Below, piece after piece: positions 1 to 36,080 of a stretch of 49,153 bases of DNA. A program made the position numbers and the translations under genes. Origin of the DNA: a virus; the IMG/VR virus record IMGVR_UViG_3300050821_001314, positions 1 through 49,153 of that record. The stretch is one strand, 5' to 3'. The notes under the pieces were generated by a model. That model did not search any database. It was not told the origin of the DNA and saw only the letters and a program-made list of their open reading frames with translations. How positions within the stretch are numbered: the first letter of the stretch is position 1; each line of letters starts with the position of its first letter.

Positions 1-97
1 GCCCAAATCATCCTGCCTGGATTGGAGTCCGCGAGCGTTCCTGAACCACGTTGCAACCAGTTCCGCATGAAGCTAAAGCGTTGCTCGAATTGGCTAC
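1..97. repeat. Left copy of 97-bp terminal direct repeat
   Basis: The first 97 bases are identical to the last 97 bases (49057-49153). The open frame on the minus strand continues unbroken across the join. This is the usual overlap left when a circular or circularly permuted genome is assembled linearly. It could instead be a short physical terminal repeat, but a P22-like packaging layout favours headful packaging, and the repeat lies inside a coding region. Confidence 0.95.
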
Positions 98-2381
98 CAG
101 TCTGCGGGCCTCCGGTTTCATCATCGAAGTACCGCCAGAAATTCATCGTGTTATTGCCAGTGAAAGAGAAACCTGGATTGCCCACATCTCCCAAACAGGC
201 TCCTGCCGTCGTAGTGCATACGCTTCGTGCGATGTAAAGCGTGTCCTCTTGCACGGGATCGGGGATTGCATACTTTAGAGCTGGGAAACCCATCGTGGCA
301 TCGACTACCGTGTTGTAATAATTATAGGACGTAGGCCGCGCGAGCATGTAGTGCTGAAAATATAGGAAATTATTCTGCGCGACTGTTGCGGTCTGAGTTC
401 CTGTGTGGAAGTTCCAATAGGTGTCGGTGATATAGTAGCGCGGGTAGCCGGTAACGTAAGACGTGAATGGCTCACTGTTGCATTGCGTTGAGCCTGTGGC
501 CGTACAAGTTGCTCCCCATTGCACAACGAAAGTCGTGGCACTTTTCGCTGGAGCGCCACCTGCACACCCACCGGAATTGTTGAAGGTGATAGTGGTACTG
601 GTGAAGCTCGCAACCGTGCATTGCACATAAGACTGAGCCGTGGGATTGACACCCGTGACGATTGTTACCGTCTCACCGTTCGCCAGGTTGCTCGTTCCGT
701 TTACGGTATAGACGTAATTTCCTGAGCCTCCACCTGAGACAACCGTATTGACGACGCGCGAAGGACAAGATGCTCCCGGTACGCAGTACTGATAGTTCTC
801 AATGCTATTTGCCCCGCCTGTTACTTCAAGCTGGTTCGGCTGAAGGCCGATGATGATTTCATTGTTGCTCGTGTTTGTAACGCCGGGCTGATATTCCAAA
901 GACTTCGGCCAGTAACCAGCGGCTTGGTAGACGCCGGTTTCAATTCCATTTGCGCCATCGTCTAAATCCGCCCAGCCGACCGGATAGATGGTTTGGGTTA
1001 GAATCGTGCTTGGATTAGGCGTATGGCTGCTGTCGTTATACTGTGTTCCGCTGAGGGATGCGTAACGGTTGTTGAAGGACGGGCCAGCACGAGCTACTTC
1101 TAACTGCACGCAATCGTCCCCGCCAACTTGTGCGCCGCAGTTCGGGTCATTGTTGATGTCCGGCACAGCCCCGCTGGTGGTGTAGCCAATCCATTCGTCT
1201 GCAAATTGTGCGGAAGAAATGGTTCCGGTGACAGGCGATGCGACATTATTTGTGCTGAGCTTATAATTACGCGAGGATGGCGAACCTAGATTGTCGGTCA
1301 GATGTAACTCTATCTGTTGCGCTTCCCTGTATGCGGTGTTTATCGACTGAGTACCCATGCTCGCGGGGATAGCATTGCGAATGGCAACGGAAGTCTTAGT
1401 GTCGGAATGATTAGCCCAAAAGTGCTGGCGTGTGCGCCATTGCAGGTAAATGTCCCCGCTAGAATTGACCAGATTGCCTTGGCACATCACCACCGAGCGA
1501 ACGGAGCCGTTTTCTTCGATGAAACATGTAGATGAATTGTCGTTAGCAGAAGTGTAGGTTGCTGTCAAATCGGAACCGCATACCGTGACTCCTGCATATA
1601 CTGTTCCGATAGGCCCAGAAGCATACGGCGCGGAAGTTCCAGAGACTCCGGGGACGCAAGAAATAGCGTTTATGCCGCCTGCCGAGTATCGCGTATGGCT
1701 CGGTCCTACGGCTACGATGCCGTCTGTCGCATCATGAATCCCTGCCGCAACGATGTGCGTCGAGCCTATTAGAACATCATGGAACAGGTCATAATTCGCT
1801 TTCTGGATGATGAAGGTTGCTGCCCCAGTCGTGACCGTGATGGTCGTTCCATTGTCCACGGCCATCGGAGTCGCCGCAACACAACTTCCTCCGGTGCATG
1901 TGACATTTCCACCGCCTGAAGTGACTTGCTTGACTGTGATGGAAGTATCGAAGCCTTGCGAACCAGTGCAAGAGCCAGGGAGTCCGGTCAGTTGGCATTC
2001 AGTGAACGAGCCTAACTGCGCGTCAGTCAGCACCCATTTCGCATGACCTGAAGGCCAACGAGCAGTGCAACGGAATTGCGCGGTTATCTGCGTCGAGCCG
2101 TTGAACAGGCCTATCAGAGTCGGGGCTTCCTCGTTCTGCGGAATCTGCGACCATCCTGACCCAGTGCCGCCAATGTTCGGGCAATCCATCGCATCTGCGT
2201 CGGGGATTCCCAGGCCGAAAGTAACAGGAGCGTTTGTGCGCGTGCCGGAAGGATAGACAGGCATCGCGCCCCACTCCGCAGGCTGCACGGTAATGTTGGT
2301 GATGGTCGTCTGCGCAAACGCAGGGAAGGCCAACAAGAACAGAATGATGGCCCACAAGAGAAGAATAAGAAGGCGTTTCAT
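1..2381 (-). CDS. Giant secreted polysaccharide-lyase-like protein, N-terminal part (continues at 49153)
   Basis: This holds residues 1 to about 793 of a 2,388-aa protein that runs off the left edge and resumes at the right edge. The ATG at 2381 overlaps the TAA of the preceding gene (TAATG). It opens with a Sec-type signal: MKRLL, a long hydrophobic core, then AFA-Q. The next region has a beta-sandwich look with the segment ARWPSGHAKWVL at about residues 100-115, which recalls the N-terminal domain of PcRGLX/YetA-type rhamnogalacturonan lyases. I checked long stretches codon by codon on the minus strand and found no stop. Virion tail protein or secreted depolymerase are both possible; the enzyme family is inference from short motifs. 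Confidence 0.85.
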   Translation of the reverse strand, partial: MKRLLILLLWAIILFLLAFPAFAQTTITNITVQPAEWGAMPVYPSGTRTNAPVTFGLGIPDADAMDCPNIGGTGSGWSQIPQNEEAPTLIGLFNGSTQITAQFRCTARWPSGHAKWVLTDAQLGSFTECQLTGLPGSCTGSQGFDTSITVKQVTSGGGNVTCTGGSCVAATPMAVDNGTTITVTTGAATFIIQKANYDLFHDVLIGSTHIVAAGIHDATDGIVAVGPSHTRYSAGGINAISCVPGVSGTSAPYASGPIGTVYAGVTVCGSDLTATYTSANDNSSTCFIEENGSVRSVVMCQGNLVNSSGDIYLQWRTRQHFWANHSDTKTSVAIRNAIPASMGTQSINTAYREAQQIELHLTDNLGSPSSRNYKLSTNNVASPVTGTISSAQFADEWIGYTTSGAVPDINNDPNCGAQVGGDDCVQLEVARAGPSFNNRYASLSGTQYNDSSHTPNPSTILTQTIYPVGWADLDDGANGIETGVYQAAGYWPKSLEYQPGVTNTSNNEIIIGLQPNQLEVTGGANSIENYQYCVPGASCPSRVVNTVVSGGGSGNYVYTVNGTSNLANGETVTIVTGVNPTAQSYVQCTVASFTSTTITFNNSGGCAGGAPAKSATTFVVQWGATCTATGSTQCNSEPFTSYVTGYPRYYITDTYWNFHTGTQTATVAQNNFLYFQHYMLARPTSYNYYNTVVDATMGFPALKYAIPDPVQEDTLYIARSVCTTTAGACLGDVGNPGFSFTGNNTMNFWRYFDDETGGPQTGSQFEQRFSFMRNWLQRGSGTLADSNPGRMIW

Positions 2382-4345
2382 TATTGGTAGAGGATTCCCC
2401 AGTTCAAGGATGCGGATGTCCCAGTCCCGCCGCCGATGGCAAATTCCACGTAATATAAATCTCCCGCAGCTACGGAAAAAGACAACCCTGTCGCCGTACA
2501 GGTAGTCGTGGTCGATACGCTGGTCGTTACTTGGCATTGAGTGCTGGTGCTCGCAGTAGCGTCTACTAAAGTAAAAGTTAGGTTAACCGTCGCGCTGGCC
2601 TGTGCCGCGCTGAGATTCCATCGAATTGCAGTAACTGTGAAGGCTCTTGCTGCCACGCTTTCAATCGCAGCAGCGGTGGTGTTACTTGCTTGCGGTCCGC
2701 CAAAAGCATTGTGCGAGTTATTGGTCGTTGACCAGGTAATCGCTGAGGTGCTGCCCCCCATTAAAGCACTAGCTATCCCAGTTCCTGCATTCGCTATAAC
2801 GAAGGCATCCGTAGCAATCTTTGTTGTGTTGTCCGCTACGGATTGGGTTGTTGCGGTGGCCCCGTTTGGTAGAGCGATGGTACTAGAAAGCTGTGTTCCC
2901 GTGATGGTCGCGTTGGTTATGTCGGCAGCCACTACGGCGGATGACGTACACGCCTGAGTCAAACCTGCAAAGTGACAGAGCCCTACGCCGGGAGAGGCCG
3001 CAGTGACCACGTTCGATGGATTTACGGAAAACTGAGCGTAAGTAAAAGCGCTACCCGCTGGGCCGATGCTCGTAATGCTAGAAGTAAGCAGCCAGCTTGT
3101 GGTCGCGTTGGCGGTACCACTCTGAACCGGAATCGCTCCAGTGTTGTTCACGTCTGATGGCTGGTCGTAATCAAGGGCGCGAGTGAAGACAGGAGATACC
3201 GCTACGTTTCCCACGATGGTTGCCGTATAGATTCCGTTCTGTGTCGCGTCCGTTTGATTCTTCAACAGAACGCGCTGCCCAATGGTGTTGATAGCAATGC
3301 CGTCGAGGGTGAAAGCGCCCGTTGCGGTGACGGTGAAAGTGTCTCCGATGCCGCCCGCGACTGACGTATAAGTCCCTGTAATATTTGCGGTGGATGCGGC
3401 CAGTACTGCCACGGCAGGATTAACCGCTGCGATGGCGTTGGTTATTGCCGTGGTAACGTATTGCGTGCTCGCCGCTTTGGTGCTGGCGTCGCTGGCTGCT
3501 TGGGTCGTAGTGAGGAGCGAAGTCGCTCCAGTAAAGTCCTGTGCTCCCGTGGTGTACGTATTGCCCTGTCCTGTCCCCACGCAAGTTGCGCATGCGACCA
3601 CCGGAGTTGTCGTCGGATTCGTGGTGCTGAGTAATCCCGTTCCGCTTACATTTGTAACCGTGCCTGTCCCCGGAGTTATCGTGTGGCATCCAAACCCCGT
3701 TCCCGATGTCCAGATTAGGGCGCTGGTAGTGGCGCTGCATGAAGGAAGGGGTAAGTCTGAAGGCGTTGTAGCGGTCAACGCCCCCAGAACGGTGTTTGCA
3801 GTCTGTGTGGCAAGCGCGGCCTGTAGCGTTCCGCTGGTTGTCACTGCCGTGGATGGCGTTGCGCTCAGAACGGTGCCATCTCCGGTGAAGGTCACGCTGG
3901 TTACTGTTCCGCTGCCACCACCGCCACCACCGCCTCCTAACAGCGCGGTGTCGATAGCATTCGATGCGTTCAGTGCCACCACTGCCGTGCCGCTAGTATA
4001 AGCCGAGCAGCGCACTCTGAAGACTTGCGCTCCTGGTACGTTGCACGTCCACGTCCCTGCTGCCGTCGTGCTCGTAACCGCAGTGGTAGAGTTAGGCGGA
4101 ACGCAGTTCACTGAGGATTTGTTAGCTTCCGTGCCGTCTGCGAGGACTTCAAATTGCAGCGTAGCCGAGAAGGTTCCGGAGATAGTGAACGTCACGCTTC
4201 CGGTATTTGTGGTGCTGAGTTGAATTACTGCGCAAGCTCCTGCCGTCGTACAGCTTGAGCCTGCCGCCGTGATGTTCTGCCCCTGCGCACGCCATCCGCC
4301 TACCAGCAGCAGAAAGGTGAGCAGGATTAAGTGTCTTTTGTGCAT
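2381..4345 (-). CDS. Secreted tail-fibre-like protein with poly-Gly hinge
   Basis: A 654-aa protein starting at the ATG at 4345, preceded by AGGAGG at ideal spacing; a longer upstream frame is a shadow of the neighbour. Residues 1-23 form a Sec signal (MHKRH, hydrophobic core, AQG-Q). Low-complexity Thr/Ser/Ala beta repeats follow, with an eight-glycine run near residues 136-145 and then a GTVTSVTF-type repeat, which is typical of phage tail fibres. The C-terminal 110 residues look like a compact beta domain ending in WGILYQ. It sits between the tailspike-like gene upstream (stop 8 nt before this ATG) and the giant gene downstream. It is probably a receptor-binding or adhesin protein; no catalytic motif is visible. 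The signal peptide is odd for a virion component. Confidence 0.8.
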   Translation of the reverse strand: MHKRHLILLTFLLLVGGWRAQGQNITAAGSSCTTAGACAVIQLSTTNTGSVTFTISGTFSATLQFEVLADGTEANKSSVNCVPPNSTTAVTSTTAAGTWTCNVPGAQVFRVRCSAYTSGTAVVALNASNAIDTALLGGGGGGGGSGTVTSVTFTGDGTVLSATPSTAVTTSGTLQAALATQTANTVLGALTATTPSDLPLPSCSATTSALIWTSGTGFGCHTITPGTGTVTNVSGTGLLSTTNPTTTPVVACATCVGTGQGNTYTTGAQDFTGATSLLTTTQAASDASTKAASTQYVTTAITNAIAAVNPAVAVLAASTANITGTYTSVAGGIGDTFTVTATGAFTLDGIAINTIGQRVLLKNQTDATQNGIYTATIVGNVAVSPVFTRALDYDQPSDVNNTGAIPVQSGTANATTSWLLTSSITSIGPAGSAFTYAQFSVNPSNVVTAASPGVGLCHFAGLTQACTSSAVVAADITNATITGTQLSSTIALPNGATATTQSVADNTTKIATDAFVIANAGTGIASALMGGSTSAITWSTTNNSHNAFGGPQASNTTAAAIESVAARAFTVTAIRWNLSAAQASATVNLTFTLVDATASTSTQCQVTTSVSTTTTCTATGLSFSVAAGDLYYVEFAIGGGTGTSASLNWGILYQ

Positions 4346-4353
4346 CGAGCCTC

Positions 4354-7300
4354 CTATTTGTTGATAAGAACAGTTGCAGTCGCGCCGGAGCCAGTTCCGC
4401 TCACATCTCCAATCACGATACCAGCATATTCTCCGGCAGTGCAGGCGGTTGACCCATTGTCGTGCGCAAATCCGATTGTTCCAGTAGAAGCCGGTGGTCC
4501 GCAGGCTACGTCTCCCACTACCGGAGTGCCGTCGAATATCAGCGTGAACTGTCCAGCGGTTCCAACGAAAATCTGCGTACCTGTGCCACCGACAGTCTCT
4601 GCCTCGCCGACGATATTGTTGGCCGCGAGCGGGCATGCTGCGACTTGATACGCCGTCGTCGTCATGCAAACCACTTCATGAGCGTTCGACAGTGCGGAAG
4701 CGACGGTGAAGGATTGGAGCATCTTCGCGTGACCCTGCTTGCCCCCGGCTGTGGAGTTCCCTGCCTCCACTACTGCATCACCCGCGTTGGAACTGCCACT
4801 TGTTGAGGCGTTCGACCCGCCAGTTAAGTTGGCGGCCCCAGCGGAGAACGCTCCCGAACCGCCAGTAACGTTACCGCCCGTGGCGGTGAATGTGCCCTGC
4901 GTTGCGCCACTGTTTATGCCAGACTGAATGGTCACGTTAGTCGCGGCCAGTAGAGCTTTGATGGCTCCAGCATTGAAGTTCAGGCCGGGGAAGCTGATGG
5001 AGGTTGCGCCGGAAGTTCCGCTATGGACTAAAGTAAGAGTGCTGGTTCCATTCGTTCCGGCACCGATAATATCATTCCATCCCCACGAATCCGCTGCGTA
5101 AGCCGAAACACCTGTCTGATAGACTCCTTCGACAAAGACGCCCGGAGAACTAGCCACCGCGCTTGCTACGGGAGTTTGGGTGATTATATCTCCGTTTACA
5201 TCCGTCACGACGTTCGGTGAACCTGTCAGCGCATTGCTTGTGCCTGACGTGGAGTAGTAAGGGATTTGATACTGCGGAGAAGAAACAATCGTATTCCCCC
5301 CAGCGGTAAAAGTTTGGGGGTTTAGAATTAATGCAGCCGTGGGGGATGTTATAACCTTAGCGCAAGTTAGTACTCCTGCAACTAAGTCGTTGGCAACCAA
5401 TGAAACATAGCTACTCCCGTTTGATTTATAGAGACCCAATGTTCCGATTCCATTCGCATTTATGGTCGCCCCGCTAGTCGTATTATTGTTAGTAGGAACC
5501 CAGCAGAAGTCCATTCCCGTAACATAAGAAGTAGGTCCAGGTGATAGCGTCACTGTCTGCGCATTCGCTGTCCCTCCACCGACTCCGTAGTAATTCGGGC
5601 TATAGTCTTGCGTGCCGATGGCTCCGCCCATTGCTACGTTCCAGTTGGCATTATCGGGAGACCAGATTGTGGAGAGCTTGCCTGCTGGAATCTTGAGCGT
5701 TGAACCGGAGCAGTAAGGTGAATTATCAACGCAGGTGAAAGTACTAGTGGTCGTGGTGATAGTGTCTAAAGCTGTCCCCGTATTTGAGATGCTGAGGTAG
5801 AAATTGCTTGCAAATCCCGCGCTCCCTGCTTGCGGCAGCGTGTCGGTCATTGCTGTCGATGCGCCGCGTGTCACGATGCAGGAAAAGTCTGAGGCTACAT
5901 ACGGATAGCTCGCAGAGCTTCCCGAACCTCCGGGGCATTGCCCAGCCGTGGTTGTCAGCAGCGTACCGCTATTCGCACCGTTTACTAGAACTCTGGGTAC
6001 TGGCGTTAGATTCGCTACGCCGGGAGAGCAGCCTGCCGTTACGGCGCGAGGAGGAGAGCTTGCATCAGTGCAAAGGCCGGAAGAAGTTGACCACGCCGCG
6101 TCAGTGATGAAAGAAGCAAGGAAATTCCCAACCACCATCCCGCAAACTCCCCCGGCATGGGTAAGGCAGCGCCAGTTGTCGCTCATGTCATACCATTGCC
6201 GGTCCTGAAAAATAGCTGGAGCGGGAGGTGGCGTGCTCAGGTTATTGGGTATGGAATCCGTATAGGCCGGGCAGCCTGTAGTACTCGCGCTTGACCCTTC
6301 GCAATATACTTGCGGATAGAATCCTGCCGGGTCCATCAGGCCGTTACCGATGGCCCCAACTGGGTTCATATCGAAGTGAACCGGGCCTCGCAGGCCATTA
6401 GTCGATAGATTATTGAACATGTACACGGGCGCGGTAAAGTCCACTACCCTGGTATCCCGAAATGTCCAATCGTTCACGTAAGTTCCGGTCGCTATGGCGA
6501 AATCCTTGCCAACAAGTCCTTCTGAGAGGACATCATCGAATACGACATCCCCATCAGACGGCACGCCCGCGTTGTTCACGACAACAGAACTATTTCCACC
6601 GATAAATGAATGCTCGAAGGTAATCATATTGAAATTCGTGAAGGTTAGATTCGCAGGCCCAGACCAGGAAGAGTATTCAGACCGGAAGCCAAACCCCGAT
6701 ACCTGACTGGAACTGGACGCATCCGCTAGGTAAGCTGCCCCGGAGGAATTGTTGTTGATGACGCACTTGCTGAATATCTCCCACGTCGAGCCAGCGCCGG
6801 AATTGTCATGCGAGTGAATAACCGCTGTCGTGCTAAAACCCTCAAGGTCGATGCCCTCGAAATAGACTTGCGTTACTCCGTTCAAGTCAACCAGAGGAGC
6901 AGACTGAGTGGTTGGGTTCGTCCAACTAACCGAAGGAGCATATAGGAAACTGCCGGATAACCCCTGAAAACTTCCCGAATGTCCGATGAAGGCTGACTGG
7001 TTGCCAGGAACTACCGTGTTGCCGCAAAGCCCGCTGTCGAATACCGAAACAATCCATCCATGCGTTCCTGTGGGAATGTTGATGGTTGAAAACTTATAGC
7101 ATCCTGTGGAGTGAGGAAAATACACGGTTCCACCGCCGCCTGTGCCTGTGGCGTTCAAGTCAGCAGCGGCTTGAGCATAGGCTGCGTTGATAGCTGCTGT
7201 GTCATCGGTAACGCCATCACCATGCGCTCCCCATGCTGTCACGTCGTACCACGGCTGCCCGCTCTTGACTCGCAAGTTTCCAGGTATTGAAAGAACTGGA

Positions 7301-8049
7301 GGAGTTGCACCGTAAGTATAAATAAGACCTGAGGGGCCGATGAAAACTCCAGAGCCGTTTACTTGGACGTTCGTATCAACCCCACCTGGAGTCCCACCGC
7401 CTCCTCCACCTCCGCCTAACGGGTATTGGTCTGCGTAAACCAGCGTCTGAATGGTAGAAGAATAGACTTGAACGGTGTACGGATTTGATGCCACGTATGC
7501 GTAAAAATACCCGTTGCCGTTCGTCTGTACGGGGTTGGGCAGGGCGCTCGTTGTTACTGTTCCCCCTGTTATGTAGCTGCCGGGATTAGAGAATACGTTG
7601 GCAATCGTTACGTTCAGCCCTGAGACGGAAGCTACGAGCCAGACGCCGTTATATCCAGACGGGCTTGCTCCCGTGATAGAAATGTAAGAGCCTGCCACAA
7701 CATCAGAAGGAACTATGGCTAGCGCGAAGGTAATCTGTTGCACCGCATAGGAAGCTCCGGTTAGAGATGTCGTATTTGTGCTCGGGGCGTTGTACAGAGT
7801 CGCAAGCGGAGTGCAGGGCTGAGAAGTCAACGTGGCTGGCTGCGAGCAGATGGCAACATTCGCTCCGGCTACCGCAGCGCCGAGAGGAGTCTGTACCGTT
7901 CCTTGCAATCGGAAAACGGGCTGTTGCCCGAAGGCGGCAGATGGGCATAACATGGCAAGCAGAAAGGAGATTACTGTGACCATCCTCTTAATCGTGCTGA
8001 TTGCTTTCTTCTTGTCGCCGCAGTTAGATAAGCTCGGGTTGTAACTCAT
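4354..8049 (-). CDS. Tailspike-like protein with pectate-lyase-type beta-helix
   Basis: A 1,231-aa protein whose ATG overlaps the preceding stop (ATGA). A hydrophobic stretch at about residues 23-42 ending AFG-QQ looks like a Sec signal, preceded by a Lys-rich segment. An Ig/CarboxypepD-like region (LQGTVQTPLGAAVAGANV) follows, then an eight-glycine hinge near residue 210. A right-handed beta-helix of the Pectate_lyase_3 type starts near residue 268 with the hallmark WGAHGDGVTDDTAAI and runs to about residue 640. The C-terminal half has Gly/Ser/Thr-rich fibre repeats and a final beta domain. In P22-like phages the last structural gene is the tailspike depolymerase, so position and fold agree. 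The specific polysaccharide cannot be read from sequence. Confidence 0.85.
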   Translation of the reverse strand: MSYNPSLSNCGDKKKAISTIKRMVTVISFLLAMLCPSAAFGQQPVFRLQGTVQTPLGAAVAGANVAICSQPATLTSQPCTPLATLYNAPSTNTTSLTGASYAVQQITFALAIVPSDVVAGSYISITGASPSGYNGVWLVASVSGLNVTIANVFSNPGSYITGGTVTTSALPNPVQTNGNGYFYAYVASNPYTVQVYSSTIQTLVYADQYPLGGGGGGGGTPGGVDTNVQVNGSGVFIGPSGLIYTYGATPPVLSIPGNLRVKSGQPWYDVTAWGAHGDGVTDDTAAINAAYAQAAADLNATGTGGGGTVYFPHSTGCYKFSTINIPTGTHGWIVSVFDSGLCGNTVVPGNQSAFIGHSGSFQGLSGSFLYAPSVSWTNPTTQSAPLVDLNGVTQVYFEGIDLEGFSTTAVIHSHDNSGAGSTWEIFSKCVINNNSSGAAYLADASSSSQVSGFGFRSEYSSWSGPANLTFTNFNMITFEHSFIGGNSSVVVNNAGVPSDGDVVFDDVLSEGLVGKDFAIATGTYVNDWTFRDTRVVDFTAPVYMFNNLSTNGLRGPVHFDMNPVGAIGNGLMDPAGFYPQVYCEGSSASTTGCPAYTDSIPNNLSTPPPAPAIFQDRQWYDMSDNWRCLTHAGGVCGMVVGNFLASFITDAAWSTSSGLCTDASSPPRAVTAGCSPGVANLTPVPRVLVNGANSGTLLTTTAGQCPGGSGSSASYPYVASDFSCIVTRGASTAMTDTLPQAGSAGFASNFYLSISNTGTALDTITTTTSTFTCVDNSPYCSGSTLKIPAGKLSTIWSPDNANWNVAMGGAIGTQDYSPNYYGVGGGTANAQTVTLSPGPTSYVTGMDFCWVPTNNNTTSGATINANGIGTLGLYKSNGSSYVSLVANDLVAGVLTCAKVITSPTAALILNPQTFTAGGNTIVSSPQYQIPYYSTSGTSNALTGSPNVVTDVNGDIITQTPVASAVASSPGVFVEGVYQTGVSAYAADSWGWNDIIGAGTNGTSTLTLVHSGTSGATSISFPGLNFNAGAIKALLAATNVTIQSGINSGATQGTFTATGGNVTGGSGAFSAGAANLTGGSNASTSGSSNAGDAVVEAGNSTAGGKQGHAKMLQSFTVASALSNAHEVVCMTTTAYQVAACPLAANNIVGEAETVGGTGTQIFVGTAGQFTLIFDGTPVVGDVACGPPASTGTIGFAHDNGSTACTAGEYAGIVIGDVSGTGSGATATVLINK

Positions 8050-11859: not shown

Positions 11860-14800
11860 CTAATTGCTTCCTCGATATGCAGCCCATGCCGCTTTCTTCA
11901 TCGTCATCACCACGCGAGACAATTCAAAATTAGCAGGCGCTTGTATTGTTCCACCGTTTGCCACTTCTAGAAAGAATCTTGCCCCTGTTTGATTCACCAT
12001 TATTTCCGTGTCCCCGTAGGCTGGCGAAGGCGAGAGAGGATACGCGCCCAGAGGGAGCGCATACGGCGAAGTAATCGTGTCGGGATAAATATTGACCTGT
12101 GCATTTCCGTTCCCTGTTAGAAGTGCTGTAATCATGTCGGCATCCAGCATCTGATTGCCCATTCCGAGAGCTTGTGCCTCTTGTGTTTTTGGCATCGGAC
12201 TTGTGACGTAGTCCCATGGAATGATTGCTCCGTCGTCGAGGTAGTTCCCCGTGAGTTGCTGGTAAATCTTTCCGCGAAACTGGTTGTTGCAATAGAACAA
12301 AGGTTGGGTCGTGTCGGTGCGAGTGATAAAATCCGCATAAGAAGCCTGAATCGACCACGCGCTCCACTTACGTCCTAACTGAAAAGTCCTGAGTTCTCCC
12401 ATGAAGCTCTGCCGTATCGGGCCTTCGCTGGTCAACGCTCCGCTCGACATCAATTCCCGGTAGGACAGCATCAGAACTACGTTGGGTGACGTAGGATTCG
12501 CGTTTACCGGGAAGTTCGGCATCCATTGATTAGGCGTCGCAAGAGGAACACCGATACAAATTCTCCGGTTGATGATGTCGTTCTTGACCCATAGGGTGTA
12601 ACCATATTTCCAGTTGATGGCGTTCCAGAGAGTGTCTATTTCGGGGGAAAGTTTCTGAGGTTTACCGCCGTCAAAGAGATAGAGTCCTGCCTGCCCTGCA
12701 ATCAGCGCCCAGCTTTCGCTGTCTTTATCGGTCGAATAATCCACACCGTTTATAGAAGGTGTTCCGATGCCAGCAATCTCTTTAATCGTCCAGCCGTCAG
12801 GTTCGGTGATGCCATTGTCCGAGGTCGAGCAGAATGAACGAGTCCGCACTACGTAGAGATTGTCAAACAAAGTGAAAGCGGCACTCACGGGCTGCTGGTT
12901 TTGTGTGCCGACTCCAAGGTTTCCGGTCACGCCGTCGAAGGCTTCAAAGTTGTTGACGTAAGAGCCACGCAACTGTGTGTTGAGCACGGGCTGCTGAGTC
13001 GGATAAATCTCTATGCGGTCGATTAGGTAAGTAGGAACGAAATAGAAATTTACTCCCATGAAAGGCTCGTGGCTGATGGCATAAACTCTTAAAAGCAAGT
13101 CGGTAGGAACGGTTGCGAGCGGAGTGTCGAGCAAGTCAGCTTCAAATGTTTGCATTGCCGCGGTCGGTGTGCATCCGAAAAGCCCATAGGTCTTGCCGAA
13201 AGAAGGGCTGTACAAATCCACATTCAGACCAGAATCAGAGTTAGAACCCGCAGTCAGTTGCGCAGTAAATCTAATGCTGTATTGTGTATTAGGCTGGATG
13301 ATAGGTGCGCCGCCGCGAGGACTCGAAATAGTAACCTTTTGCTTATGTCCTCTTCCTAGAGTTCCGAATGTAATTGTCTGCGCCGTGAAGGAATCCTCAA
13401 AAGCAGGCTGCTCAATCATTCCCTGAATCACTAGCCCACCAGAAATGGTCTGAATCTGATAAGCGTCTCCGAACACAGGAGAATCAACGACTGAGGTAAC
13501 TCCTCCTCCAACAATCCCCGCTCCGTACACACTATCGGGCGTCCAACCGAGCGGATAGGTGGAAACAATTGTGCTAGGGTCGGTCGGAACGGGCAGAACC
13601 TTCCCGGCACCGCCATCAAAGGTCATGTTTATCAGGTTCTGTATTTTGTTGTTTTCCCCCCAAACGAACAGTCGATTGGCATAGGCGATAGTTCCTAGAC
13701 AGCTTCCCAACTCTACTTGGGCAAAATTGTTTGTCCCTTGAAAGCTGATACTTTCTGCTGCAAGCAGAACTGCGTCGGTAAAAGTGAACGTGGCCGAAGT
13801 GGATGTGTTGTCGTTGATGATTGTTTTGGTGTAGTTCACTGTTTGATTGTTGCTGATGACACTTACATCCTCGGGAATCCAGTAGTAATACCCGCCGCCT
13901 CCGGCTAGCGTTGCTCCTCCTGCTCCGGTAAAAGCAATCACGCGTGCCACGACGTTATCCGGTCCAATGGGAATCTGAGAAGCGATGATGGAGTTGGCCG
14001 AACCGCTCAGCGTAAAAATGGTCTGGGGAGAAGGCGCGGTCAGGTAGCCATTCGTGGTAAGAAAAAGCACAACAGCCCCGCGCACTCCAGCGCCTAAGAG
14101 TCCCGCTACGACAAGAGAACCTGTGGTCGATGTGGCGATAATCTGCAAAGGGTCAAATTGGAATCTGGTGCCGTTAACAATCGCAAACGCTGTTTCCGGG
14201 GCCGATGTGATGTTCGGTGAAACAATCGCCACGCTAAATGTCGAGGACGTAGCTGCGGTGATGATTGCGCTAGTGACATTGAATATTCCGTTTCCATTGG
14301 ATGTTCCCGTCACCGTTACCCTCTGTCCGACTGCGGGAGTGACACCGCTGACAAGAGTGAAGGCGTAAGTTGCAACGTTGCCGGACAGCACCGTATTGGT
14401 AATAGACATTTGCGCGGCATTGAGTGTAAACAGGACAGTGAAAGTTCCGTCCCAGGTTGAAGGACTAGCTCCTGAGATAGTCAACTGCTGGCCTTCTTGA
14501 AGATTCGGCACGGGCGTCGATGCCACGACCGTTGCAAGCGTCGGCTGGTAAGTCGAGCCTGCCTGCGGATGCCCGGAAAAGAATCCAATCTGATTTACTT
14601 GAATCGTAAATATCGGATGAATCGTGCCGCCTGAAGTTCTAGCGGTTCCAATGCTCGTCACCGTGTAATAAACCGGGTTTCCCCCTGCGCCGTTGTTCGG
14701 GTTGAACCCGCTGATAGTCTGAAGGCCGGTAATGACGACGTTATCCCCAGGCTGAAGCTGGTTGCTCGCCGGAGGGTCAACCTGCGCTCCACCCCAAGTC

Positions 14801-15462
14801 GTTCCGGTAAGCCCGTAAAATGTGATGACGTTTCCTGGCGTGTTCAGCGTCGGCCCGGCAGACCATAGCATGTAGTAATTGCTGCTTCCGTCTCCCAAAA
14901 TCTCAGGGGCAATCTGAAAGATAGGATTCACAGGGTAGCTCAGCGTAGTCGATGTTATCTGACAACCAGCGCCCGGCCCTACTTGCGAAATCCTATCGAA
15001 GTTAAAACCTATGCCATTGTCATTGACACTGAACTGCCGCGGAATGTCCGTACCTTCCTGCAAGTCCGATATAGCAATGAATTCCCGGTCATCGTAGGTA
15101 ACGGATTTAGCAAAAGAGTTCGGGTCGATTCCTGAAAAGAACGGTGTCAGAACGCCAGGGTCGGAACCTTCGTCCATCCCCGCAACTGCTTCGTACCACA
15201 TATTCCCGGCAGTATCGAGCGCCAGCGTCAGCACGCTTCCATCCCCCGTCTCATAGGACTTTACGTAATTGAAGTTCTGTCCTGTATCGACGGGCATATA
15301 GACGCTCGATAGCCCCAGGCGTGTCTTGACTGAGCCAATGGTGAAATCGCAATCACAGCACAGAGGCGAAGAACCTGCGGGCAAGTCGGCAGGGTTCAAC
15401 TCTGTTACGAGCCCGCCAAAGGTAGTCAGCGTTGAATCTGGTTCAAATTGCGTATTAGGCAT
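11860..15462 (-). CDS. Large tail (nozzle/gp10-like) protein with Ig-like repeats
   Basis: A 1,200-aa protein. I place the start at the ATG at 15462, which overlaps the upstream TAA, because the extra 46 codons before it lie inside the neighbour. The N-terminus (FGGLVTELNPADLPAGSSP then DCDFTIGSVKTRLGL) and the later GQAGLYLFDGGKPQKLSPEI are typical of beta-propeller tail hub or nozzle proteins such as P22 gp10 and T7 gp12. Inserted near residues 230-450 are beta repeats of the form GQxxTISGxxxxxWDGTFTV, also found in other virion proteins here. It is much longer than P22 gp10 (about 470 aa), mainly because of these inserts. Expected role: the tail channel below the adaptor. Confidence 0.7.
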   Translation of the reverse strand: MPNTQFEPDSTLTTFGGLVTELNPADLPAGSSPLCCDCDFTIGSVKTRLGLSSVYMPVDTGQNFNYVKSYETGDGSVLTLALDTAGNMWYEAVAGMDEGSDPGVLTPFFSGIDPNSFAKSVTYDDREFIAISDLQEGTDIPRQFSVNDNGIGFNFDRISQVGPGAGCQITSTTLSYPVNPIFQIAPEILGDGSSNYYMLWSAGPTLNTPGNVITFYGLTGTTWGGAQVDPPASNQLQPGDNVVITGLQTISGFNPNNGAGGNPVYYTVTSIGTARTSGGTIHPIFTIQVNQIGFFSGHPQAGSTYQPTLATVVASTPVPNLQEGQQLTISGASPSTWDGTFTVLFTLNAAQMSITNTVLSGNVATYAFTLVSGVTPAVGQRVTVTGTSNGNGIFNVTSAIITAATSSTFSVAIVSPNITSAPETAFAIVNGTRFQFDPLQIIATSTTGSLVVAGLLGAGVRGAVVLFLTTNGYLTAPSPQTIFTLSGSANSIIASQIPIGPDNVVARVIAFTGAGGATLAGGGGYYYWIPEDVSVISNNQTVNYTKTIINDNTSTSATFTFTDAVLLAAESISFQGTNNFAQVELGSCLGTIAYANRLFVWGENNKIQNLINMTFDGGAGKVLPVPTDPSTIVSTYPLGWTPDSVYGAGIVGGGVTSVVDSPVFGDAYQIQTISGGLVIQGMIEQPAFEDSFTAQTITFGTLGRGHKQKVTISSPRGGAPIIQPNTQYSIRFTAQLTAGSNSDSGLNVDLYSPSFGKTYGLFGCTPTAAMQTFEADLLDTPLATVPTDLLLRVYAISHEPFMGVNFYFVPTYLIDRIEIYPTQQPVLNTQLRGSYVNNFEAFDGVTGNLGVGTQNQQPVSAAFTLFDNLYVVRTRSFCSTSDNGITEPDGWTIKEIAGIGTPSINGVDYSTDKDSESWALIAGQAGLYLFDGGKPQKLSPEIDTLWNAINWKYGYTLWVKNDIINRRICIGVPLATPNQWMPNFPVNANPTSPNVVLMLSYRELMSSGALTSEGPIRQSFMGELRTFQLGRKWSAWSIQASYADFITRTDTTQPLFYCNNQFRGKIYQQLTGNYLDDGAIIPWDYVTSPMPKTQEAQALGMGNQMLDADMITALLTGNGNAQVNIYPDTITSPYALPLGAYPLSPSPAYGDTEIMVNQTGARFFLEVANGGTIQAPANFELSRVVMTMKKAAWAAYRGSN

Positions 15463-16355
15463 TAGCCCCTGACGTAAATAGCCTCGAACCGAATCGTTCC
15501 ATCGAAGGCCACGGTTGCTCCCAGCCCAGCCTCGTTCTGTACTGCTCCCGAGCTTGTTCCGGTCAAGAAAATCTGAACGGTGGAGTTGGTCGTATTCCAA
15601 ACGTAGGTGTAGCCCTTGATGGAGAAGAAAGTCATTTGCACCACGGGAACACCATTTCTCGCAAACGTCTGAAGACCAGCCTGGAAGTTACCCGAGCCAG
15701 TCCCTGAATCGGTGGTTACGCCCGCAGAGTTGGTTACGATGAAAGAGCCTGCCGTCGAGGAAGTCTGCGTAATGGAATTGATGGTAAACGTTCCGTTATT
15801 GGCAGCGTTGGTGCATCCGGCAATCGTTACGGATTGGCTGGCCTGAAGCTGCGGGCCTACTAGCGTGGTGTAAGTGTAAGTCACCTGCCCGCCCGTGTTG
15901 GAAACAGCGGTAACGGTGAACGTCTGCGGGATAAGCGCCTGAACGCCGAAGTGCAACTGCCCAACGCCTTGCGCGGTCTGCCCGGTCTGACCTGTTCCTG
16001 AAAGAGTCTTTCCTGTGAGCGGAACGGCTGTAAAAGTTCCGGCGCTGGTACTCGACGCCACTACATTTGAAACCGTGAATGTGCCGTCATTGGTGTTCGA
16101 TGCAGTATTGTAGATGACGACAAGCTGCCCATTAACGAGCGGAACGCCCTTAAGGGATGAATAGGTGACAAGACCCACCGCGGAAAATGCCGTCACTTGA
16201 AAAGCGGTACTTCCTACTCCGCCCGGAACGTATTCCGTCGCCGTGTCATTCTCTACCAAGGTTCCGCGCAGAATAACGGTATGCTCGGTATTGTCTACTC
16301 CAGAAGGAAATGCGAAAAGCGCTGGATTCAGAGTCTTAGTTGCTGTGTATGCCAT
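15462..16355 (-). CDS. Virion protein built of Ig-like NGTFTV repeats
   Basis: A 297-aa protein with a good GGAGG site 11 nt before the ATG. It contains at least two copies of a beta repeat of about 80 residues: NGQLVVIYNTASNTNDGTFTV...SAGTFTAV and SQSVTIAGCTNAANNGTFTI...TAGSFIVTNSAG. The C-terminal part (residues about 230-297) is a separate beta domain ending in FDGTIRFEAIYVRG. It lies between the adaptor and nozzle-like genes, so it is probably a tail or head-decorating protein. No catalytic motif is seen. Confidence 0.6.
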   Translation of the reverse strand: MAYTATKTLNPALFAFPSGVDNTEHTVILRGTLVENDTATEYVPGGVGSTAFQVTAFSAVGLVTYSSLKGVPLVNGQLVVIYNTASNTNDGTFTVSNVVASSTSAGTFTAVPLTGKTLSGTGQTGQTAQGVGQLHFGVQALIPQTFTVTAVSNTGGQVTYTYTTLVGPQLQASQSVTIAGCTNAANNGTFTINSITQTSSTAGSFIVTNSAGVTTDSGTGSGNFQAGLQTFARNGVPVVQMTFFSIKGYTYVWNTTNSTVQIFLTGTSSGAVQNEAGLGATVAFDGTIRFEAIYVRG

Positions 16356-16410: not shown

Positions 16411-17202
16411 TCAAGCCATCCCCGGAATCTTCCAGCCGTCTGAATCGCGGTTATACGGCTGCCGCTCGTGGCGGATTCCCTGGTCCTGCTTCACGTACCG
16501 ATTCATGATGCTGCGCAAGGCGTCATCGGCATCCGCCTTGAAGAGTTGGGCCATCTGCGCACCGCGGGCGCGTGCGTAACGGTAGGCCACAAGGTGCGCC
16601 ATAGCTTCCGTGGAAGCCTGAATAACGATGCTTACGTTGGCGAAATTGTTGGTTGGACTTGAAGCAGCAAGGGGCAATAGCTGCGCCTGATAGCGAAGCC
16701 TTAAATCCTCGATACTGGTTGAACCGAGCATCCAGATTGCGTCGTTGCGCCACTCCCAGTTATAGAGAAGTTGTCCTTGATAGTCCGAGCAGAGTCCGTT
16801 CTGCGGTTGAAACATCAGAGAGAACGGAAGGCCTGAACCATTCTGCCTTTCCCATAGCTGAAGAGGCACAAGCATATCTGAAGGAAGAGTAGGCAGCGCA
16901 TGCTGAATCGTCCCATCGTAAAATCCAGTGAAGCTCACGTTAATCTGCACACTGGGGTCAACATTCACGACCGGAGTAATCGGAGTCATGATGTAATTGT
17001 CGCGCACTAATGTTATGGAATCGTAGTCGCGGAGTTCGTCCTGAAGATATTCCAAAGCTCCGTTGAGGTACTCGATGGTGAAGGGAGCGGTGTCGGTGAG
17101 AATCCGGCCAGCGCCTCCCTGATAGGCGTCATTGATGTACGCACGCGCCCTGTTCATGACTTGTTCGACTACAGGGTACGCCTGGACTGGGTTAACTGGC
17201 AT
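16411..17202 (-). CDS. Head-tail adaptor-like protein (P22 gp4 position)
   Basis: A 263-aa protein. The N-terminal helices (VEQVMNRARAYINDAYQGGAGRILTD, then YLNGALEYLQDELRDYDSITLVRDNYI) followed by a beta-rich middle and a helical C-terminus (EAMAHLVAYRYARARGAQMAQLFKADADDALRS) match the pattern of podovirus head-completion or adaptor proteins. Its place between coat-side genes and the tail hub is the gp4 position of P22. No good Shine-Dalgarno precedes this ATG, so translation may be coupled to upstream reading. Recognition is by overall pattern; structure comparison would be needed to confirm it. Confidence 0.65.
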   Translation of the reverse strand: MPVNPVQAYPVVEQVMNRARAYINDAYQGGAGRILTDTAPFTIEYLNGALEYLQDELRDYDSITLVRDNYIMTPITPVVNVDPSVQINVSFTGFYDGTIQHALPTLPSDMLVPLQLWERQNGSGLPFSLMFQPQNGLCSDYQGQLLYNWEWRNDAIWMLGSTSIEDLRLRYQAQLLPLAASSPTNNFANVSIVIQASTEAMAHLVAYRYARARGAQMAQLFKADADDALRSIMNRYVKQDQGIRHERQPYNRDSDGWKIPGMA

Positions 17203-19766: not shown

Positions 19767-19787
19767 TTTAGCTTAGTAGAAGCTAAA
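19767..19787 (-). terminator. Possible weak terminator overlapping the coat stop codon
   Basis: Arms TTTAGCTT and AAGCTAAA form an 8-bp stem with a 5-nt loop that includes the coat TAG. On the minus strand it is followed by CGTTTTACGG, only a short T-run. It could slow or partly end transcription after the coat gene. Confidence 0.4.
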
Positions 19788-21126
19788 TCACTGGTTCTGC
19801 GGCATTTTGGATATACACGCCACTTCGCATATTGCTATTAAATAAATTTAGCGAAGCGTGATGGTAAAAGATATTACTAGTTAGCCAACCGTTACCACTT
19901 GGGTCTGGGACTGGCATCGTAGTTACCCCATTCCCGAAATCATAAAGGCTTGGCTCGATTAACTCCACTAAGCCCCAAGTCGAAAGGCACAGACCGTCAA
20001 CCCTTCCGGGTGAAGCGTTGTAGCCGATAAGCAATTCACGGCCCCCGAAAGTTTGCGGCATGTACTTCTTGACCATGTCGAGTTGCTCATCGCCTTTAAT
20101 CTCCTGAGCGTTGGCGATGACTACGTTCTGGTACAGATTGTTGATTTGGATTTGCTGGCCCGGCCCTGTGTACCAAATCATGGACTCTGCTTCCTCGGTG
20201 TCCGGCCCTAATGCGCGGTCAACCAGCACCTGCGCACGGAACGGAACAACGGGAGTCAAAGCGCCGCCTGCCAAGTTAATCGTGGGAGTGGACAAGCGGC
20301 CAGGGAAGTTAGCGCGTGTGATGCCGAGCACTGTCCCTGAGTTGCCGTTGACCTGGTAAGTCTGAATCCCCGCGATGCTTGAGTTGGTGGCTCCGGTGGT
20401 TCCTGCAATCATCAGGAAGTCGCCGGTAGTTGTGCCAGTAGGCAGTGCTTGCGAACTGTAGATGGCATTCGCCACACCGTCCACATAGCTGATAGTGAAC
20501 GAGCCGCGGTTCGTGCCGCCTACTGCCGAGAATACTTGCACAACCTGCTGGTCGGTAAACTGGTTCGCATTGTTCATGCCCGTAATCGAGCTGTATTGCA
20601 CGCCCGTTCCGGTTGAGTTGTTTACCGTGGCAGTCGTGGGAATCTGGTCAAGCGTTCCCGAACCGTCGCGGTTGAACAATGTTTCCAGTCCGTGAATGAA
20701 TACTTCAAGAGCGTTCTTTAGCTCCTGAGAGCGGACTGTGGTAATTGCACGCTTGCCACCGTCAGTTGCCCGGCGAGCAAGGTAAGTTATCTCGCAGCCG
20801 CCTACCACGAACACAGGCTGGATGTCGCCCGATACCCACTGCGAGCCGGTTCCGCGCCCTAGTGAGTCACCGTCACCTGTATTCTGTTGGATGGGAGAAC
20901 CGGACTGAATGCGCATCGGAACGCGAAAGGCAGGACGTTGCGCCACGCCTGTCGTCGCTCCAATGTTTCCGGGTGCTGCTGTGATGTAGGCAGTCGGATA
21001 AGTCTTAACCGCCCCTTTGATTTTGTTGTACAGCGTTTTGAACTTCCCGATGAGGTCGGGAATCTGCTTCATGTATGCTTCTAGCTCGATTCCCTCTACC
21101 GCTGCTTCTGCAACTGGTGAGGCCAT
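19783..21126 (-). CDS. Major capsid (coat) protein
   Basis: A 447-aa protein directly after the scaffold gene and one small frame, the standard coat position. Features fitting an HK97-fold coat: N-terminal helix (LEAYMKQIPDLIGKFKTLYNKIKG), a spine-helix-like segment RSQELKNALEVFIHGLETLF near residues 133-152, and a C-terminal beta region (LLIGYNASPGRVDGL...). Between about residues 165 and 275 is an inserted Thr/Ser/Gly-rich beta region (SAVGGTNRGSFTISY, DFLMIAGTTGATNSS) resembling the Ig-like repeats of this phage's tail proteins. Its ribosome binding site is weak (GAGAG 6 nt upstream); a strong AGGAGG lies about 30 nt upstream. Assigned from position, length and fold pattern. Confidence 0.85.
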   Translation of the reverse strand: MASPVAEAAVEGIELEAYMKQIPDLIGKFKTLYNKIKGAVKTYPTAYITAAPGNIGATTGVAQRPAFRVPMRIQSGSPIQQNTGDGDSLGRGTGSQWVSGDIQPVFVVGGCEITYLARRATDGGKRAITTVRSQELKNALEVFIHGLETLFNRDGSGTLDQIPTTATVNNSTGTGVQYSSITGMNNANQFTDQQVVQVFSAVGGTNRGSFTISYVDGVANAIYSSQALPTGTTTGDFLMIAGTTGATNSSIAGIQTYQVNGNSGTVLGITRANFPGRLSTPTINLAGGALTPVVPFRAQVLVDRALGPDTEEAESMIWYTGPGQQIQINNLYQNVVIANAQEIKGDEQLDMVKKYMPQTFGGRELLIGYNASPGRVDGLCLSTWGLVELIEPSLYDFGNGVTTMPVPDPSGNGWLTSNIFYHHASLNLFNSNMRSGVYIQNAAEPVI

Positions 21127-22595: not shown

Positions 22596-22682
22596 TTATT
22601 TTCTCCTGAGCCTATCTTTCTCGTTTATTACGCAAAACCAAATCATTCCTAAAACCCAAATACCTACAAGAAACCACCTCAC
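22596..22682 (-). CDS. 28-aa single-TM microprotein between portal and scaffold
   Basis: A GTG start overlaps the portal TGA (GTGA), and the TAA abuts the scaffold ATG, so it fills the gap exactly. The peptide is one hydrophobic helix, MRWFLVGIWVLGMIWFCVIN, followed by the very basic tail EKDRLRRK, which fits a membrane peptide with its C-terminus in the cytoplasm. Part of the 3' end doubles as the scaffold ribosome binding site (CTCAGGAGA). Function unknown. Confidence 0.55.
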   Translation of the reverse strand: MRWFLVGIWVLGMIWFCVINEKDRLRRK

Positions 22683-25162
22683 TGAACTTTCTCCGACTGT
22701 TGCGGTACGACCGGAATAGGTACTTGCGGATGCTTCTCGGCGGCCTGTTGCACGTCTTGTGCTTCAAAGTCCTCTGGTCCTTCTACGATGCCTGCCTTAG
22801 CTGCTGCCTGCGCTGCGCCCTTCGGTGGCAAATCCTTTAGGTTGATACTCACGCTCGGAGGCTTCTGTTGCTGTGGCTGGTTCTTCTGTCGCAATGCTTC
22901 GTGCTCGTTGTAATGCAGGACAAGATTCTGGAATCCCATCTGCTCTTCTTGCGTCCCGTTCTGCATCGCCCGGCCTTCCGGGGAGCGCATCTTGCCAAGG
23001 CAAGTCATGGATTCAATGTCATGGTCATCCCAAGAATTTACAGGAACGCTCGATGTCTCGGGAGAAATCTGCGCAATAGTCTGTTGCATTTGCTGCGCCA
23101 TCTGCTGGCCTTCCGGTGTCGGCGGAGGCGGCCCCATCTCCGTTACCTTCTGCATCGCTTCATCGAGCTTGGGATTGGGAAGAGGCTGTCCTTTGAGCAG
23201 TATTTCTATCTCGCCAAGCTGCTTGTCGCGTGAAGCTAGCTGGGGGATAATCAGCGAACTAACTCCTATTGTGTTCTTGACTAGTTCTAAGTTACCTGGG
23301 TCATCTACAATCTGCAGGAACATAGGATTCGTAATCGCTAGTTGAATTGCGGCTTCAATCTTCTGGGCCGTTTGCGCGGAGGTTAGCGGGAAGTTCTCGT
23401 CCGTCTCAGGGAAACAATACACGTTACCCTTGAGGTCGGCAGTCTCGACTCTCACCGCATCTTTGCCTACCGTCTTGATTACGTCCTGCCCGGATTTGGA
23501 AAGACACATTACCGCCTGCCGCATTACACTGGAGAGTCCTTCTTTGATTCTTCCCCAGACAGGCCCGAGTCTTCCGAGGGCTTGGTCGCGCTGGATTTCG
23601 ATTCCTCCCATCGTGTCGTTGCTTCCGGTGTCTCCGCCGAATAGAGCAGGAAAGCATCCGGTAAGTAACTGAGCGAGGTCTCCTGATAGCCATTGAATGA
23701 TAGCCACCAACTGTTCTGGGAATGGTAGCGTTTCTTCGACAAAGATAGCTTCTCTGACTCCGTTCGGGAACTTTCCTGGGTCTTGCACATAGAAGTCAAA
23801 TCCTCCCGGCACGCGAGTCTGTGCCTTGATGCCCTCTTTACTGAATGGCCCTGCCGGAAACCACGTCATCGGCACGCCGCGCACCAGATAATCATTCGCT
23901 AGGTCTAGGAGATTATTTAGCACCTTCTGAATAGGTAGCAGCCACTTGAGCAAGCTAGCTCGGTGCATTCCATCGCCAGACCTTGCGTGTATCAGCGTCA
24001 AATGGTCGTCCATAGAGATATTACGCGCTTCGCAGAACGTCTCGCCCATGTACACCACGCGGCATCCGTTCGGGAACATCTTGAGCAGGTCGTCACGCAT
24101 CGGCTCAGTGATGTCAGGGTCGTAGAATATCGAAGGCCGGAACCAGGTTACTTGTCTCGTAACGTCGTAAGCCACAGAGTCTGAAGTCTGAAAGTTATTC
24201 TCGACGCCGAGCTTCACGTTCACACGAGCAAGACGCGCAATGTTATCTCCGCCCGGCCCGGCGCTTGATGTGGAGATTTGGCTAGACTTATCGGGGAACT
24301 CCGCTTTGGCAATCGAGATGGGAACTTCTTTGCTTATCTGAGCGTAATCGCAGTCACCCAGACAGTTCGCCTTCATGGGAAGCTTGGATTCTAGAGAGCC
24401 ATGTGCGACAACGGTTTCTCGGCCTCTGGGAGGTCTTGCATTACCCAACACTTGAGGTCCAGGTAATCCACTCTGCCCGGAAGTATCGGAATCAAGCCCT
24501 GCTGATATTTCTCCGCTATCTGAGCTAGTCTCTTGCGCTCCCATGCCGTCGAGTGCTCCGCTCTCATCCTCCGGCACCACGCCCGGACTGTCCGACTCGT
24601 AGCCGTATTTCTGGGCGTCTTTGACATAGTTCGTCTCCAGTACTGTGCGGCCATCGGTGCAAAGCAGCCTGTCTATGTCCTGAAGCAGCGAACGACCGCC
24701 GATGTTAATTTCTACCGAGTCCTGCAAGTCAGATGCCGCTTCTGCCGCGGTGATGTCGATGTCGTTCTGCTCGTCGTTTGGTTCAAAGCGTGTCGGTGGG
24801 AACTGCCTCGACAGCGCCGAGACAATCATTTCCTTGTACGAAGAAAATATATTGGCGTTGAACATCGCCCGGCTGCCGGCATCGTTCGGATGATAGCCTG
24901 AGCCTAACGCGGGAAGCGTCCAACCCTGCGTCTTGCTATAGAGCAGGTTCTGAAAGCCTCTATCAAATAGCCGCATCTCCCACGCGCTGATTATCTCCTC
25001 GCGCCATGCTGGTAAGTCCTTCTGTCCGACCTTTTGCACCTGCGCTTTGATAATCGCAATCTGCGTGTCAACCAGCTTTACAGGCTGCTCCTCGAATACT
25101 TCATAAGGCGCGGCGATACCGGGAGCTAATTGCTGCTTTTCAGGCTGTTGGTTAGTATCCAC
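22679..25162 (-). CDS. Portal protein (P22 gp1-like)
   Basis: An 827-aa protein, long as in P22-like portals (about 725 aa). A helical N-terminus is followed by the wing/stem pattern with LPAWREEIISAWEMRLFDRGFQNLLYSKTQ-type segments, and then a mixed alpha/beta core. From about residue 640 there is a long helical, Gln/Pro-rich C-terminus (QQMAQQMQQTIAQISPETSS), comparable to the P22 barrel helix. The start is a GTG overlapping the upstream gene by 11 nt; the next ATG is 62 codons in and would remove conserved-looking sequence. It forms the dodecameric DNA entry channel and docks the terminase. Neighbours (terminase upstream, scaffold downstream) agree. Confidence 0.88.
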   Translation of the reverse strand: MDTNQQPEKQQLAPGIAAPYEVFEEQPVKLVDTQIAIIKAQVQKVGQKDLPAWREEIISAWEMRLFDRGFQNLLYSKTQGWTLPALGSGYHPNDAGSRAMFNANIFSSYKEMIVSALSRQFPPTRFEPNDEQNDIDITAAEAASDLQDSVEINIGGRSLLQDIDRLLCTDGRTVLETNYVKDAQKYGYESDSPGVVPEDESGALDGMGAQETSSDSGEISAGLDSDTSGQSGLPGPQVLGNARPPRGRETVVAHGSLESKLPMKANCLGDCDYAQISKEVPISIAKAEFPDKSSQISTSSAGPGGDNIARLARVNVKLGVENNFQTSDSVAYDVTRQVTWFRPSIFYDPDITEPMRDDLLKMFPNGCRVVYMGETFCEARNISMDDHLTLIHARSGDGMHRASLLKWLLPIQKVLNNLLDLANDYLVRGVPMTWFPAGPFSKEGIKAQTRVPGGFDFYVQDPGKFPNGVREAIFVEETLPFPEQLVAIIQWLSGDLAQLLTGCFPALFGGDTGSNDTMGGIEIQRDQALGRLGPVWGRIKEGLSSVMRQAVMCLSKSGQDVIKTVGKDAVRVETADLKGNVYCFPETDENFPLTSAQTAQKIEAAIQLAITNPMFLQIVDDPGNLELVKNTIGVSSLIIPQLASRDKQLGEIEILLKGQPLPNPKLDEAMQKVTEMGPPPPTPEGQQMAQQMQQTIAQISPETSSVPVNSWDDHDIESMTCLGKMRSPEGRAMQNGTQEEQMGFQNLVLHYNEHEALRQKNQPQQQKPPSVSINLKDLPPKGAAQAAAKAGIVEGPEDFEAQDVQQAAEKHPQVPIPVVPQQSEKVQ

Positions 25163-35973: not shown

Positions 35974-36038
35974 CTTTTGCCTTTGCGCGCTTTTGACTCT
36001 GCTCTCAAGCGCAAATCTTTTGCTGTTCTTTTTCGCAC
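35970..36038 (-). CDS. Possible 22-aa basic leader peptide
   Basis: A GTG-started frame reading MRKRTAKDLRLRAESKARKG and ending in a TGA that overlaps the radical SAM ATG (ATGA). It is extremely basic. There is no good ribosome binding site. It may couple translation, or be chance; the rest of the 107-nt gap shows nothing clear. Confidence 0.25.
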   Translation of the reverse strand: MRKRTAKDLRLRAESKARKGKR

Positions 36039-36080
36039 CGCCAATCAATAGGGAGAGTCCCTGCGCGGAAACGGTGCGTA

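Follow-up and report, generated by a model that had tools for sequence, protein, structure and literature searches.

Background

Tailed phages are taken to assemble wholly in the cytoplasm of the infected cell, where disulfides rarely form. Phage envelope proteins that carry Sec signals are represented by the spanins and by Llp, the receptor-blocking lipoprotein of T5, which are small lysis or exclusion lipoproteins exported by the host secretion pathway. Here we describe four contiguous genes of a soil phage (IMG/VR record IMGVR_UViG_3300050821_001314; positions 1 to 49,153, the whole 49,153-nucleotide stretch being referred to as the window) whose products are likewise phage-encoded and apparently exported, but are large, of tailspike or fibre type and arranged four in series. 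A tailspike of comparable layout is that of the cultured Serratia phage Spe5P4 (PP858852), in which an N-terminal domain, here termed D, is followed by the start of a right-handed beta-helix, as in the window tailspike (FGAKGDGVTDD / WGAHGDGVTDD). The Spe5P4 protein has no signal and begins directly at D, whereas the window tailspike carries a Sec signal of 41 residues as well as a cysteine pair inside D. Soluble phage depolymerases, which are released by lysis, have a polysaccharide-lyase-like fold such as is predicted in the window and, as the window proteins would, act outside the cell, but differ in their release by lysis and in that no signal peptides are mentioned for them (PMC5380687). 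The literature searched, whose coverage was partial, yielded no account of tailspikes with Sec signals. Tailspike and fibre proteins themselves are known; what sets the present ones apart is the presence of export signals on them as a trait of a phage lineage.

Results

Joined at the 97-base direct repeat of its ends, the window forms a 49,056-base circle, in which 66 genes were counted. The genes for a small fibre-like protein, a giant protein, a fibre-like protein and a tailspike run continuously through the circular join, and each encodes a classical Sec-type signal with a predicted cut before glutamine (Table 1). Once the terminal repeat is removed, the giant reads through the join as 2388 amino acids on the minus strand with no internal stop. 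All four N-termini combine a basic n-region and a hydrophobic core with a site of the form AFG↓Q, AQG↓Q, AFA↓Q or AKA↓Q, the arrow marking the predicted cut: ..KRMVTVISFLLAMLCPSAAFG↓QQPV in the tailspike, MHKRHLILLTFLLLVGGWRAQG↓QNI in the fibre, MKRLLILLLWAIILFLLAFPAFA↓QTT in the giant and MRARLILAGLAIVLVLTIGAKA↓QSS in the small protein. Signals were called by a rule (charged n-region, uncharged hydrophobic core, -3/-1 rule, no anchor after) rather than by SignalP, and the rule accepted 10/10 classical E. coli-type signals. In the window it picked the four block proteins and two small membrane-type open reading frames (ORFs) from the 66 genes (Fisher test for the block, p=2e-5); in control phages it picked 0/36 genes in T7, 3/47 in P22 (holin, Rz and an ORF antisense to annotated genes) and 1/48 in Pelagibacter phage HTVC104P. 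When the N-termini were shuffled 3000 times, the real score was reached 32 times for the tailspike, 20 times for the fibre and never for the giant or the small protein, so that the first two signals are less extreme than the last two. A chance origin of the signals was rejected on the shuffles and the Fisher test. The earlier note's observation of four contiguous tail-type genes with Sec-type signals cut before glutamine is thus borne out by the N-termini, by the giant read through the join and by the rule applied to all 66 genes. We infer that translocation and cleavage of the four proteins take place.

Table 1 Features of the window discussed in the text
Feature	Position	Strand	Basis
Tailspike, 1231 amino acids: Sec signal, domain D, right-handed beta-helix region, fibre-like C-terminus	4354-8049	-	PF12708, signal rule, D alignments
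Tailspike Sec signal peptide, codons 1-41, predicted cut AFG↓QQ	7927-8049	-	signal rule
Domain D: predicted transthyretin-like beta-sandwich with inserted FCCH-like barrel; cysteine pair ICSQPATLTSQPC	7345-7926	-	alignments, structure model
Pectate-lyase-like start of beta-helix (PF12708)	7087-7251	-	Pfam; low-confidence model
Fibre-like protein, 654 amino acids; Sec signal 4280-4345, predicted cut AQG↓Q; 13 cysteines in mature chain	2381-4345	-	signal rule; phrog_2647 head decoration stretch
Giant protein, N-terminal part; Sec signal 2313-2381, predicted cut AFA↓Q	98-2381	-	signal rule
Giant protein, C-terminal part, Hydin/ASPM-type Ig-like repeats, joined across contig ends	44271-49153	-	Pfam
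Small fibre-like protein, 139 amino acids; Sec signal 44191-44256, predicted cut AKA↓Q; alternative start 44274	43837-44256	-	signal rule
97-base direct repeat	1-97	.	identical to 49057-49153
TTB, large tail protein (label given here)	11860-15507	-	profile, order, size
297-amino-acid protein without D domain or signal	15462-16355	-	fills TTA-TTB slot in window
TTA, tail-tube gene (label given here)	16411-17202	-	marker adjoining signal-less D fibres in relatives
Putative major capsid protein (MCP)	19783-21126	-	weak profile matches, gene order, size
Putative portal	22679-25162	-	weak profile matches, gene order, size
Terminase	26961-28529	-	identity to Pelagibacter podoviruses

Related soil phages were collected by alignment scans with TTA and terminase, which returned about 30 nearly whole contigs of a diverse podovirus group; such alignment-based scans were needed, as single-protein scans with the tailspike or TTB found few relatives. 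In 13 of these relatives (G002, G003, G007-G013, G022-G024 and G032), signal-less fibre proteins that adjoin TTA begin with a homologue of the window tailspike's D. These belong to the same phage family and are 43-48% identical in D where compared, but differ from the window tailspike in having no signal, few cysteines, a length of about 450 amino acids and a fibre-like C-terminus in place of a beta-helix. D is preceded by a Sec signal in 14 genomes, including G038, whose N-termini were missed by the rule and were judged to be signals by eye, and in 17 when three weaker D-like proteins missed by the profile (G030, G034 and G041) are added. The search of related soil phages that the earlier note had proposed thus found the signals lineage-wide, and on this sequence comparison the signal on spike and fibre proteins is a lineage trait.

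The two forms of D were never found together in one genome (0 among the approximately 30 related contigs). Several signal-bearing genomes (G004, G030 and G035) have D beside TTA, which is the slot of the signal-less D, and so do most of the proviruses examined. On a core-gene tree (terL, portal, MCP and TTA), signal-bearing D occurs in at least three places, interleaved with the signal-less form, which requires at least three switches; a few deep nodes are weak. From the mature N-terminus to a conserved arginine there are 3-6 residues in nearly all signal-bearing rows (outliers 2 and 9), compared with 4-7 in the signal-less proteins. Predicted cleavage therefore leaves an N-terminus as short as that of the signal-less form, which places the signal exactly at the border of D. 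Hidden signals in the signal-less homologues were rejected, since an in-frame stop closes the frame 2-10 codons upstream in 5/5 of the genes checked.

Genes for signal-bearing proteins whose cut lies at or close to a glutamine are enriched within 22 kb downstream of TTA (40/327 genes, compared with 9/345 elsewhere; p=1e-6). The closest relative, G001, has five of this kind. Between it and the window phage the core is 90-99% identical and the exported set is the variable part: the tailspike is 75% identical before an unrelated C-terminus, the giant 40-74%, and the small protein has no match. The giant signal and its G001 counterpart differ by a 7-residue deletion, and it is still a signal. Pfam searches with most other exported proteins of the relatives gave no match, so that any enzymatic nature is putative. 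Signal-bearing proteins of about 600-750 amino acids starting AAFPGAQG / NFPGxxG, at L138:8826-11081 (G007), L179:1505-3382 (G031) and L130:365-2206 (G037), recall secreted pectate lyases, with no Pfam match.

The signal-bearing and signal-less proteins also differ in cysteine content, with 2.0 and 0.09 cysteines per 100 amino acids, respectively, in the D proteins; 11/13 signal-less D proteins have none, and the range is 0-4 per whole protein. At the position of the pair in the window D (Table 1), signal-less homologues have VLTQPATTTTQPGSP, and the pair is absent from most of them. Disulfide-bonded proteins are expected to show even cysteine parity. Among 53 dereplicated signal-bearing proteins, cysteines are twice as frequent as in other proteins, and the count is even in 41/47 of those with at least two cysteines (p=9e-8), compared with 208/355 non-signal proteins (Fisher test, 9e-5). 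This paired-cysteine composition of the mature chains, seen across the family, fits disulfide-bonded extracytoplasmic proteins, and disulfides probably form in the mature chains.

D is predicted to adopt a transthyretin-like or carboxypeptidase-regulatory fold. Its model (pLDDT 77.5, pTM 0.75) gave a whole-domain structural match to 5aq0 (VIA-align Z 10.0, root mean square deviation 1.6, 78/82 residues), and Foldseek by itself gave no PDB match below 1e-3. The modelled inserted barrel has structural matches (Z about 8-9) in the FCCH domain of E1 enzymes and in the phi92 endosialidase barrel. This barrel (7543-7782, minus strand) is found in D of the window, of G001 and of the signal-less group and is absent from most signal-bearing D proteins; repeats resembling it also seem to be present in TTB and the 297-amino-acid protein. 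Beyond D, the PF12708 match spans just the first 55 residues of the beta-helix region, and the AlphaFold model of tailspike residues 40-640 was poor (pLDDT 51), with low-confidence matches to beta-helix tailspike and epimerase structures that were taken as supporting only. The D alignments define an N-terminal adaptor domain common to the window tailspike and phage tail proteins, and because the cultured Serratia phage tailspike has both D and a beta-helix, this combination is a genuine tailspike layout. A tblastn search with the whole window tailspike against named phages gave no match.

A first scan of bacterial genomes, with the signal-less type of D as query, found no relative. A second, with the Cys-pair type, found 17 loci, all (17/17) in metagenome-assembled genomes of Acidobacteriota (Acidiferrales, Terriglobia). 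In most of them portal, MCP, TTA or TTB lies around D, which marks these as either proviruses or phage contigs that were binned. Of the 13 loci with readable signals, most pass the rule, the cut falling nearly always directly before the glutamine of QGSR or QGVR. Across 12 comparable loci the signals are 28% identical (ungapped) and D 66%; as most still pass, selection seems to act on whether the stretch serves as a signal and not on its exact residues. Many of the relatives appear to infect Acidobacteriota, and the window phage itself most likely infects a diderm host of this phylum. Two Acidobacteriota contigs, L233 and L234, encode signal-bearing D proteins with no recognisable phage core genes within 10 kb; these are either host proteins or belong to unrelated proviruses.

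The core genes of the window lie on the minus strand. Its terminase is about 31% identical to those of Pelagibacter podoviruses, and the portal, capsid and tail labels, unlike that of the terminase, are inferred from weak profile matches, gene order and size. The exported block is preceded by two proteins (at 9035 and 8046), then runs tailspike, fibre, giant and small fibre, and is followed by a lysis region with an endolysin. Adjoining the endolysin, the gene at 41675-42274 (minus strand) has an export-type N-terminus, MQTRRQFVGSLTGG..TLGGC, with a twin-arginine (Tat) motif and a lipobox; its product is likely a Tat-exported lipoprotein that may act in lysis or exclusion. A 251-amino-acid protein (40788-41543, minus strand; phrog_19005, a family of unknown function), with 49% identity in G001, is encoded between the exported genes and the early region. 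In the early region, a radical SAM protein (34954-36048, minus strand; phrog_9298, E 5e-50) has a RecE-like exonuclease and an Erf-like annealing protein as neighbours. HNH-type endonucleases are encoded by at least three genes dispersed in the window (28471-29028, 33636-34007 and 37954-38541, minus strand), which are probably homing elements.

Discussion

The signals, their position at the domain border, their retention through the lineage, the exclusion with signal-less D fibres and the cysteine signature are read directly from sequence, and they indicate that the four products are very probably exported and selected for export. In the account that we favour, and hold to be reasonably probable, these tailspike- and fibre-type proteins are exported through Sec by an infected diderm host, most likely an acidobacterium; signal peptidase would cut before glutamine, and folding of the mature chains, probably with disulfide formation, would take place in the periplasm. 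Much less certainly, the D-bearing tailspike would still be the receptor-binding or depolymerase part of the virion, joining particles as lysis mixes periplasm and cytoplasm, and the giant, fibre and small proteins would be accompanying exported enzymes or adhesins. That the tailspike is still a virion spike is suggested by the replacement pattern, in which the two D forms never occur together and D can occupy the slot beside TTA. More tentatively, and with rather less than an even chance in our estimate, the receptor-binding spikes may be Sec pre-proteins that are matured by disulfides in the periplasm and attached to DNA-filled particles at lysis, so that assembly is finished outside the cytoplasm. 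Several points weigh against this account. Two of the four cysteine counts in the window (21, 13, 68 and 4) are odd, and the window D lies outside the TTA slot. Many secreted bacterial proteins have a transthyretin-like fold, and D may therefore not always serve as a virion adaptor. Spike attachment after lysis would face dilution, virion membership of the four proteins is putative, and the lineage is known here from sequence alone. In-vitro spike attachment in P22 is a precedent. It was not found stated in the passages of PMC9576892 consulted.

The earlier note had offered a choice between secreted products and a particle completed outside the cytoplasm. Export, which both share, is well supported by the lineage-wide occurrence, the retention of the signals and the cysteines, but the two options are not separated. 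That all four proteins are exported and never enter particles, being released before or at lysis as free depolymerases, adhesins or receptor-masking proteins while another protein such as the 297-amino-acid one serves as virion fibre, is on the whole unlikely, though a serious contender. Three signal-less D genomes (G007, G008 and G012) have a second set of signal-bearing proteins in the same region, which suggests that the locus exports non-virion proteins generally; the Ig-like repeats of the giant are of a secreted-protein type, and some phage depolymerases are known to be soluble and freed by lysis (PMC5380687). Against it, the absence of any genome with both D forms, and the signal-bearing D in the virion-tail slot by TTA in several, point to replacement rather than addition. 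Free exported depolymerases or adhesins are nearly as likely as a tailspike that joins the virion, and are favoured for the giant and small proteins. For the tailspike, the apparent replacement in synteny, in which a signal-bearing protein takes the place of a signal-less tail fibre, tips the balance slightly towards completion of the particle outside the cytoplasm.

A capture of genes for host secreted proteins, whose signals would be non-functional leftovers, was also raised in the earlier note and would agree with the Acidobacteriota relatives of D and with transthyretin-like and Ig-like folds being common in secreted host proteins. This is very unlikely, given that most signals still pass the rule at 28% identity, that the giant signal is still one despite the 7-residue difference from that of G001, that cysteine parity holds in the mature parts and that D, the N-domain of the tailspike, also occurs in signal-less phage tail genes. 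Uncleaved anchors that keep the proteins in the host inner membrane during infection, for example in superinfection exclusion, would suit the moderate excess over shuffled scores for the tailspike and fibre, but are similarly unlikely in view of the short cores and the A/G-x-A/G↓Q sites that recur family-wide with cleavage at a domain border. An artefact of start-site choice or prediction, with the real starts downstream of the signals, is hardly credible: an internal ATG (..AMLCPSAAFGQQ) could yield a signal-less tailspike, but the signal is conserved in relatives, and Shine-Dalgarno sequences precede the annotated starts of the tailspike (AAGGA, 9 nt upstream) and fibre (AGGAGG, 4 nt upstream) and not the internal ATG. 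The giant start, without a clear Shine-Dalgarno sequence, overlaps the fibre stop (TAATG).

Conclusions

The repeated switch between a signal-less, cysteine-poor and a Sec-signalled, cysteine-rich tailspike offers a natural comparison for where phage spikes fold. It also bears on the possible completion of virions at lysis, and on whether polysaccharide-active proteins are secreted ahead of burst by phages of a soil phylum with few cultured members. With either outcome it matters for annotation, as such genes would otherwise be labelled host secreted proteins.

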